Virus record (IMG/VR): IMGVR_UViG_3300012936_000183
Coordinates: 1 to 23,045 of that record
Reading direction: 5' to 3' (one strand)
From: a virus
Length of the DNA stretch: 23,045 nucleotides
Each line of letters opens with the position of its first letter. Position 1 is the first letter of the stretch. Positions 5,253 through 6,572 of the stretch are shown in pieces. The notes under the pieces are model-generated. The model searched no databases. It was not told the origin of the DNA and was given only the letters and a program-made list of their open reading frames with translations. A program made the translations under genes and the position numbers.

Positions 5253-5537
5253 ATGTCAAAGGATAATAATAATATTTTGCTTAACGCGAATGAAATAATA
5301 TTTAATCGTAAAGAAGAAAAGCAAAGACAATATGGGCCGATTGATGAATCAATAACTAAAGCCGCCCGCGTTGCATCAGAATTAACAAATAAAGATATTA
5401 CAACTGAAGATATGTATAAATGTCTTATAGCTCTTAAAATAAGCCGTATGGCATATAATATAAAGAAAGATACAATGCTTGACTGTGTAGGATATATAGC
5501 CGCTTTAGATTCATTTAAAAATGGCGGATATGAGTAA
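5253..5537 (+). CDS. DUF6378-like phage protein (94 aa)
   Basis: The 94-aa product carries a pattern I recognise from a phage-specific helical family often found next to nucleotide-metabolism genes: KEEKQRQYGPIDESI near residues 20-34, AARVASELTNKDITTEDMYK at 38-57, and CLIALKISRMAYN then KKDTMLDCVGYIAAL towards the end. The ER.xxYG, CxiALKxaR and kDxxxDxxGYxA signatures match DUF6378 as I remember it. Such proteins look like all-alpha MazG-like folds without the full catalytic acid set, so a nucleotide-related role is plausible but unproven. It overlaps the thymidylate-synthase-like gene by 17 bases. Confidence 0.6.
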   Translation: MSKDNNNILLNANEIIFNRKEEKQRQYGPIDESITKAARVASELTNKDITTEDMYKCLIALKISRMAYNIKKDTMLDCVGYIAALDSFKNGGYE

Positions 5538-6285
5538 ATTTGAAAAAAAGTATAAAAAATTATTACACAGTTGTTTAAATAAAGGAATTAAATGCGAAAA
5601 TCGAACAGGTATTGATACATATAAATTATTTAATAAATCTTTAAGGATAAATATAAATAAAGGTTTTCCGATCATAACTGGTAAAAAAATATTTTTTAAA
5701 AAAGCATTAGCTGAATTTAAATGGATATATGAAGGCCGAACAGATTTAAATTATTTACATAAGCATAATATATATTGGTGGGATGATTTTGCAAAAAATA
5801 ATGATTTAGGTAAAGTGTATGGTTATCAAATAAGAAAATTTAACGGAGTAATAGATCAAATAGAATATGTAAAAAAAGAATTATTAAATAATTCAAGACG
5901 CGCAATTATTACATTATGGAATCCGTCAGAATTACACGAACAAGCATTGCCTTGCTGTTATACACAATTAAATTTTGTTAGAATAAATTCTTCTTTAAAT
6001 CTTTCTATATCTTTTAGAAGTTCAGATTTATTTTTAGGGCTACCATACGATATAATATTTGGAGCTTTGTTTTTACAAACTATTGCAAATGAATTAAAAC
6101 TATTGCCGAATCAATTAGCATTAAACTTAGCGGATGCGCATATTTATAAAAATCATAAAAATCAAGTATTAAAATATTTAAATGAATCAATATATAAATT
6201 ACCAAAATTAACAGGTGATTATAATAATTATACTTTAAAAAATTATAAAAGCGGTGATTATATAAAAGCAAAATTAGTAGTATGA
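5521..6285 (+). CDS. Thymidylate-synthase-family enzyme, possibly a dCMP (hydroxy)methylase
   Basis: A full-length (254 aa) ThyA-fold protein. Family landmarks: ENRTG at 26-30, the VYGYQ block at 99-103, SRR at 125-127 (phosphate-binding Arg126/Arg127), the nucleophile Cys146 in LPCC, RSSD at 166-169, LGLPYD at 172-177 and DAHIY at 205-209; the last sets fall on the same residue numbers as in E. coli ThyA. Two positions depart from ThyA. Asn177, which reads the uracil ring of dUMP, is Asp here (PYD instead of PFN), and the His after the nucleophile is Tyr. Asn-to-Asp at this site is the known mark of dCMP hydroxymethylases such as T4 gp42 and switches preference to dCMP. So the product may methylate or hydroxymethylate dCMP using a folate cofactor rather than make dTMP. 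It overlaps the MazG-like gene by 4 bases. The family is certain; the substrate is inference. Confidence 0.8.
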   Translation: MADMSKFEKKYKKLLHSCLNKGIKCENRTGIDTYKLFNKSLRININKGFPIITGKKIFFKKALAEFKWIYEGRTDLNYLHKHNIYWWDDFAKNNDLGKVYGYQIRKFNGVIDQIEYVKKELLNNSRRAIITLWNPSELHEQALPCCYTQLNFVRINSSLNLSISFRSSDLFLGLPYDIIFGALFLQTIANELKLLPNQLALNLADAHIYKNHKNQVLKYLNESIYKLPKLTGDYNNYTLKNYKSGDYIKAKLVV

Positions 6286-6572
6286 GTTATTTTAGTAAAA
6301 TACGCCTGTGGGCAAAAGAAAAAAACATTTTAGATCAAGGGGATATAAAAACACAATATATAAAATTGCAAGAAGAATCGGGGGAATTAGCCGAGGCAAT
6401 ACTAACAAATAATAAAAAAGAAATAAAAGACGCTATAGGCGATATGGTAGTGGTATTAACTTCATTAAGTTATTTTAGTGGTTTCACAATAGAGGAAGCA
6501 ATTGAATCAGCTTATAATGAGATAAAAAATAGAGAAGGTAAAATAATTAATAATACATTTGTAAAAAACTAA
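6282..6572 (+). CDS. MazG-like nucleotide pyrophosphohydrolase
   Basis: A 96-aa all-alpha NTP pyrophosphohydrolase. The metal-binding signature EExxE...ExxD is present: Glu31, Glu32 and Glu35 in LQEESGELAEAI, then Glu47 and Asp50 in KEIKDAIGD with Asp54 completing the site, followed by the hydrophobic helix MVVVLTSLSYF. It removes pyrophosphate from an (d)NTP to give the monophosphate. Its start (ATGA) overlaps the stop of the ThyA-family gene, so the two are coupled. If that enzyme takes dCMP, this protein could supply it from dCTP, as gp56 does for gp42 in T4. Other options are dUTP or house-cleaning activity. Confidence 0.8.
   Translation: MSYFSKIRLWAKEKNILDQGDIKTQYIKLQEESGELAEAILTNNKKEIKDAIGDMVVVLTSLSYFSGFTIEEAIESAYNEIKNREGKIINNTFVKN

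Follow-up and report, generated by a model that had tools for sequence, protein, structure and literature searches.

The protein encoded at positions 5521 to 6285 (plus strand) of the viral DNA analyzed here belongs to the thymidylate synthase (TS) family and is predicted to be a phage dCMP C5-methylase, which would make 5-methyl-dCMP for 5mC-containing phage DNA. We give this reading a probability of roughly 0.62; fold, active-site residues, clade membership, and gene cassette could all be established from sequence. The extent to which 5mC would replace C in the phage DNA is only weakly indicated.

In the proposed mechanism, Cys146 would attack C6 of dCMP, Asp177 would read the amino group and N3 of cytosine, and methylene-tetrahydrofolate would provide the one-carbon unit. 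A TS-like finish—hydride transfer from the folate under a closed C-terminal latch—would yield 5-methyl-dCMP and dihydrofolate. A neighboring MazG-type enzyme probably cuts dCTP to dCMP, which would both supply the substrate and remove the unmodified triphosphate. The 5-methyl-dCMP would be phosphorylated by a putative kinase and incorporated into the phage DNA in place of C, where 5mC might shield against restriction.

Gene layout, fold, and substrate

The window—the whole stretch of 23,045 bases that was analyzed—comes from a viral record, is a fragment without known lineage, and has a G+C content of 30%. Its left-hand part encodes NinG, a DnaB-like RecA-fold protein, and DUF3799/exonuclease VIII, that is, replication and recombination functions; to the right of these follow terminase, tail, capsid, and portal genes. 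The 3′ end of the gene of a DUF6378 protein (5253 to 5537, plus strand; PF19905, E 3.5e-14), a candidate partner of the TS gene, overlaps the TS gene start, and at its other end, the TS gene shares the sequence ATGA between its stop codon and the start codon of a MazG gene (6282 to 6572, plus strand; PF03819, E 2.1e-8; phrog_1992, E 1.5e-32). The TS reading frame comprises 254 residues. Since most relatives begin at its residue 4, the ATG at 5530 is probably the true start; the residue numbering shared with E. coli ThyA, as originally proposed, thus holds for the reading frame but is partly a coincidence of the start chosen.

The original prediction had recognized a ThyA-family enzyme, and a full-length match to PF00303 (residues 9–249, E 7.1e-62) places the protein in the thymidylate synthase superfamily. 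Its AF2 model (pLDDT 92.6) superposes on E. coli and Mtb ThyA with 1.1 Å over 247 residues, to the last residue; T4 gp42 is absent among the 50 structures listed for this comparison, which does not bear on how similar the two folds are. With the dTMP synthase ThyA of E. coli, the protein shares 36% identity, the fold, the latch, and the catalytic residues. The residue table confirms the sites predicted to be kept—the nucleophile Cys146, Arg126/127, Arg166, Asp169, His207, and Tyr209—and adds Arg28, the catalytic Glu65 (Glu58 in E. coli), Trp87 (Trp80), and Tyr100 (Tyr94). Unlike ThyA, however, it carries Asp for Asn177 (GLPYD instead of GLPFN), Tyr for His147, Cys for Pro145, Asn for Gln151, and Phe (F90) for Trp83. 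The first two exchanges had been called correctly: the alignment is gap-free around the nucleophile site, and both residues are fixed in 70 relatives. The putative cytosine-reading motif DLFLGLPYD (D169 to D177) lies at 6025 to 6051 and the LPCCY stretch (L143 to Y147), with the nucleophile and a TS-like Leu three positions before it (−3), at 5947 to 5961, both on the plus strand. The residue preceding the nucleophile is Pro in nearly all TS and Cys (PCC) throughout the family of the window enzyme; this Cys had been overlooked, as had the residues that separate methylases from hydroxymethylases.

A dTMP-making thymidylate synthase is expected to have Asn at position 177, whereas the window enzyme has the Asp of cytosine-specific TS homologues. 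According to work by Hardy and Nalivaika, Liu and Santi, and Graves et al., as cited in PMC8670742, position 177 sets the choice between dUMP and dCMP, and the exchange of Asn for Asp turns a TS into a dCMP methylase. Among the 433 environmental TS of the MetaGPA study, no residues predicted cytosine modification of the phage DNA better than Asp at 177 and the residue at 147 (PMC8670742). The MetaGPA Asp177 homologues resemble the window enzyme in pairing Asp177 with a changed residue 147, in having a MazG/PRA-PH-type pyrophosphohydrolase nearby, and in coming from environmental phages; they differ in that methyl and hydroxymethyl products were not told apart for them (PMC8670742). Because Asp177 together with a non-His residue 147 is this published mark, dCMP rather than dUMP is the likely substrate of the window enzyme—a strong inference, and in line with the original prediction. 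Modified cytosine in the phage DNA, also predicted, is likely as a consequence (residue marks in PMC8670742).

Viral contigs were scanned for GLPYD-type and GLPFN-type motifs, blind to neighboring genes. Residue 147 is His in all 114 aligned Asn177 viral TS, whereas the 107 distinct Asp177 viral TS carry His (50), Tyr (40), Pro (9), Phe (5), or another residue (3). Agarwalla et al. reportedly found in 1997 that in the N229D variant of L. casei TS, His199 (E. coli His147) holds the new Asp, and that removal of this His raises the dCMP activity. MilA-type CMP hydroxymethylases have Lys in place of Arg126, and Ala instead of the Ser that follows Arg166. Neither exchange is found in the window enzyme, which keeps Arg126 and Ser167/Ser168 and is hence of the deoxyribose type, with MilA compared by its published residues only.

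Most viral relatives are 60–96% identical to the window enzyme, with values down to 56%. Pro144, Cys145, Cys146, Tyr147, and Asp177 are invariant in 70 of the 70 relatives from viral contigs that cover these sites. The codons vary silently (58 GAT and 11 GAC for Asp177; 52 TGT and 17 TGC for Cys146), so the fixed Asp177, Cys146, and Tyr147 reflect selection rather than chance or sequencing error. Bacterial genomes gave only five matches, the best with 41–42% identity and mostly of another Asp177 type (LPPCH); hence, the family is viral within what was searched. The window and 12 related contigs (14 to 31 kb) carry a single TS each. A literature search did not find an enzyme assay for any member of this clade.

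Methyl or hydroxymethyl product

The original prediction took Asp177 as a mark of dCMP hydroxymethylases. Asp177 is a mark of cytosine and not of hydroxymethylation, since the product of the engineered Asn-to-Asp TS is 5-methyl-dCMP (as reported in PMC8670742). Hydroxymethylation in T4 gp42 is tied to other features: Asp145, three residues before the Cys, activates water, and D145N is dead; Ser94 stands two before Tyr96; and the C-terminal tail is absent (PMC6400193). Among the controls, position −3 is Asp in the gp42 of T4, CC31, and Aes516, and Glu in that of PEi20. SPO1 gp29, a dUMP hydroxymethylase (L076:9101-10252), has Asp at −3 and keeps Asn177; the acid at −3 therefore tracks hydroxymethylation, and Asp177 tracks cytosine.

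None of the three gp42 features is found in the window enzyme, and the label of a hydroxymethylase mark is not supported. Position −3 is Leu143 in this family, with Ile in a few relatives. Instead of Ser/Thr two before the catalytic Tyr, the sequence reads Lys98-Val99-Tyr100, with Lys at the place of T4 Ser94. The C-terminus ends in a TS-like IKAKLVV, and that of two relatives (L048 and L062) in IKAPLAI, which is close to the canonical TS end. In the model, residue 254 coincides with the final residue of ThyA structures in the closed state, the site of the TS latch. With the T4 signature missing at −3 and at Lys98 and a TS-like latch predicted, hydride transfer and a methyl product are moderately favored. 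The −3 Asp rule is based mainly on mutants of one enzyme, T4 gp42, and the pocket of the window enzyme is only partly TS-like, with Asn for Gln151 and Phe for E. coli Trp83—a residue that limits solvent in the site—the latter bringing it slightly closer to the pocket of gp42. The enzyme validated in MetaGPA is a 5hmC carbamoyltransferase; a domain of this type had no match in the 50 contigs with Leu143/Asp177 enzymes searched here.

The comparison with individual enzymes and the tree give a similar placement. T4 gp42 shares the TS fold and Asp179 (equivalent to 177), but matches the window enzyme only locally, with 21% identity over 126 residues. In phage Xp12, 5mC replaces all C of the DNA (PMC9206674). 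Its group was represented in our comparisons by a close relative, the dCMP methylase gp63 of Stenotrophomonas phage AXL1, which shares GLPYD with Asp177, Ser168, and an adjoining pyrophosphohydrolase gene with the window system; it is, however, only 34% identical, has Pro147 as well as Asn at −3, and differs at the C-terminus. Since the Xp12-group enzyme departs from the window enzyme at −3 and in the tail, no close enzyme has a proven methyl product. In a tree of 68 proteins (IQ-TREE, LG+C20), the PCCY clade containing the window enzyme has a support of 100/100 and joins two other Asp177 groups at 99/96. These groups sit within a 100/99 clade that also contains ordinary Asn177 TS, while gp42, the Microbacterium proteins, and the SPO1 protein fall outside of it and the Xp12 group forms a separate clade. 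In the tree, the window enzyme is therefore nearer to ordinary TS than to any hydroxymethylase, and not of the Xp12 clade. The placement far from gp42 and SPO1 gp29, in a large clade with ordinary TS, does not support the hydroxymethylase of the original prediction. The tree settles neither the branching order of Asp177 groups and Asn177 TS nor the number of Asp177 origins.

Some Asp177 enzymes do carry Asp at −3, namely those of three viral contigs (L148, L162, and L179) and of one contig from a bacterial MAG (L096), and by this residue are likely true hydroxymethylases. In the viral pattern scan, the residue typical of hydroxymethylases occurs in only a small minority of Asp177 enzymes. A protein of the cultured Salmonella phage SE13 (Rosemountvirus; L221:301-1185), annotated as a plain thymidylate synthase, combines Asp177, Tyr147, Leu143, and a TS-like tail; it is likely a dCMP methylase as judged by these residues, and might serve as a cultured proxy for the methyl question.

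Neighboring genes

The TS gene travels with its neighbors: a MazG gene is found in 69 of 71 loci of relatives, and 66 of these 71 have a DUF6378 gene next to the TS. In the viral pattern scans, 89 of the 111 Asp177 loci have a MazG of the window type no more than 3 kb away, versus none of the 119 Asn177 loci, and DUF6378 is nearby in 36 of 111 versus 0 of 119. These loci stem from related phages and are not independent events, but the difference is striking. The flanks searched were of similar length (median 3.9 kb for Asp177 and 4.3 kb for Asn177 loci), and most matches were immediate neighbors. With a looser cut-off of E 10 and the filters switched off, the matches near Asn177 TS did not rise above chance level. 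This distribution suggests, with moderate strength, that MazG is the dCTP-to-dCMP partner of the window enzyme. The protein passes the PF03819 cut-off and has the metal motif EExxE...ExxD, with E31, E32, E35, E47, D50, and D54 conserved; its predicted substrate is dCTP, or dNTP more generally. MetaGPA likewise describes PF01503-type pyrophosphohydrolases adjoining TS on modified contigs, and in T4, as annotated, gp56 does for gp42 what MazG would do here. A profile comparison of MazG with T4 gp56 gave no relationship. In many relatives, the MazG following the TS bears a GIY-YIG-like N-terminal extension of ~150 residues (e.g., L010:10755-11513 and L048:10753-11502), while that of the window is bare.

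For DUF6378, the AF2 model (pLDDT 82) consists of four helices, and E22, K23, Y27, G28, E43, D53, K62, R65, D73, and D77 are invariant. Profile comparisons with the MazG of the family and with T4 gp56 gave nothing for the idea of a MazG/gp56-like pyrophosphatase; no sequence relative was found in the PDB, and neither Foldseek nor VIA-align returned a confident fold match.

In AXL1, genes for DHFR and dCMP deaminase stand beside the TS; neither was found in the window. Neither the window nor the 12 related contigs gave a match to the families of thymidylate kinase, dCMP deaminase, or DHFR, and another 50 Asp177 contigs likewise lacked a DHFR match. Hence, the presence of DHFR cannot separate methylases from hydroxymethylases in this set, and 5-methyl-dCMP kinase and dihydrofolate recycling must come from the host or from unrecognized genes. 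The uncultured podophage MedDCM-OCT-S28-C10 (L073:19164-21185) has a row of genes for a MazG-like pyrophosphatase, a P-loop kinase, an Asp177 TS that is 57% identical to the window enzyme, and a dCMP deaminase; a kinase can, therefore, travel with an Asp177 enzyme.

Alternative readings and implications

The next most probable reading is the hydroxymethylase of the original prediction—similar to T4 gp42, but admitting water differently—which would place 5hmC into the phage DNA. It would agree with the Asp177 common to both enzymes, with the partial opening of the pocket by Phe in place of Trp83, and with the MetaGPA selection, which does not tell 5mC from 5hmC (PMC8670742). We nevertheless regard it as unlikely in view of the Leu at −3, the missing Ser/Thr before the Tyr, the retained C-terminal tail, the distance from gp42 and SPO1 gp29 in the tree, and the lack of a 5hmC carbamoyltransferase domain in the 50 contigs of related type.

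An ordinary dTMP-making TS, from a lineage that tolerates Asp177, is less probable again. Such an enzyme could nest among ordinary TS and keep all other catalytic residues just as the window enzyme does, but Asp177 is fixed in the relatives together with Tyr (rarely Phe) at 147—the pair tied to cytosine-modified DNA—and a MazG of the window type is never found beside the 119 Asn177 viral TS. The exchange of Asn for Asp itself shifts the preference of TS to dCMP (as stated in PMC8670742). The kinase and deaminase genes of the podophage relative would fit a dTTP route, yet in AXL1, too, the Asp177 enzyme has a deaminase as its neighbor. The same gene row could be read in a further way, which we consider the most improbable of all: dCMP might be methylated and the product mainly deaminated to dTMP, serving thymine supply instead of DNA modification. 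dCMP deaminases can accept 5-methyl-dCMP; against this stands the absence of a match to this enzyme family in the window and the 12 related contigs. A phage dCMP methylase remains our preferred reading.

More tentatively, and rather doubtfully as a whole, the enzyme may represent a large and diverse class of environmental phages with all-5mC genomes, made by a cassette of two or three genes—an Asp177/Leu143 TS, MazG, and often DUF6378—of an origin separate from that of Xp12. This putative class includes contigs of ~30 kb in which a phage kinase or DHFR was not found. If true, calling a hydroxymethylase from Asp177 alone would be wrong for most such viral enzymes, and the classes with Leu or Ile at −3 would place 5mC, not 5hmC, in the phage DNA. 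The family would then offer enzymes for the production of 5-methyl-dCMP, and its phages would be confronted with different restriction and modification-dependent defenses of their hosts.
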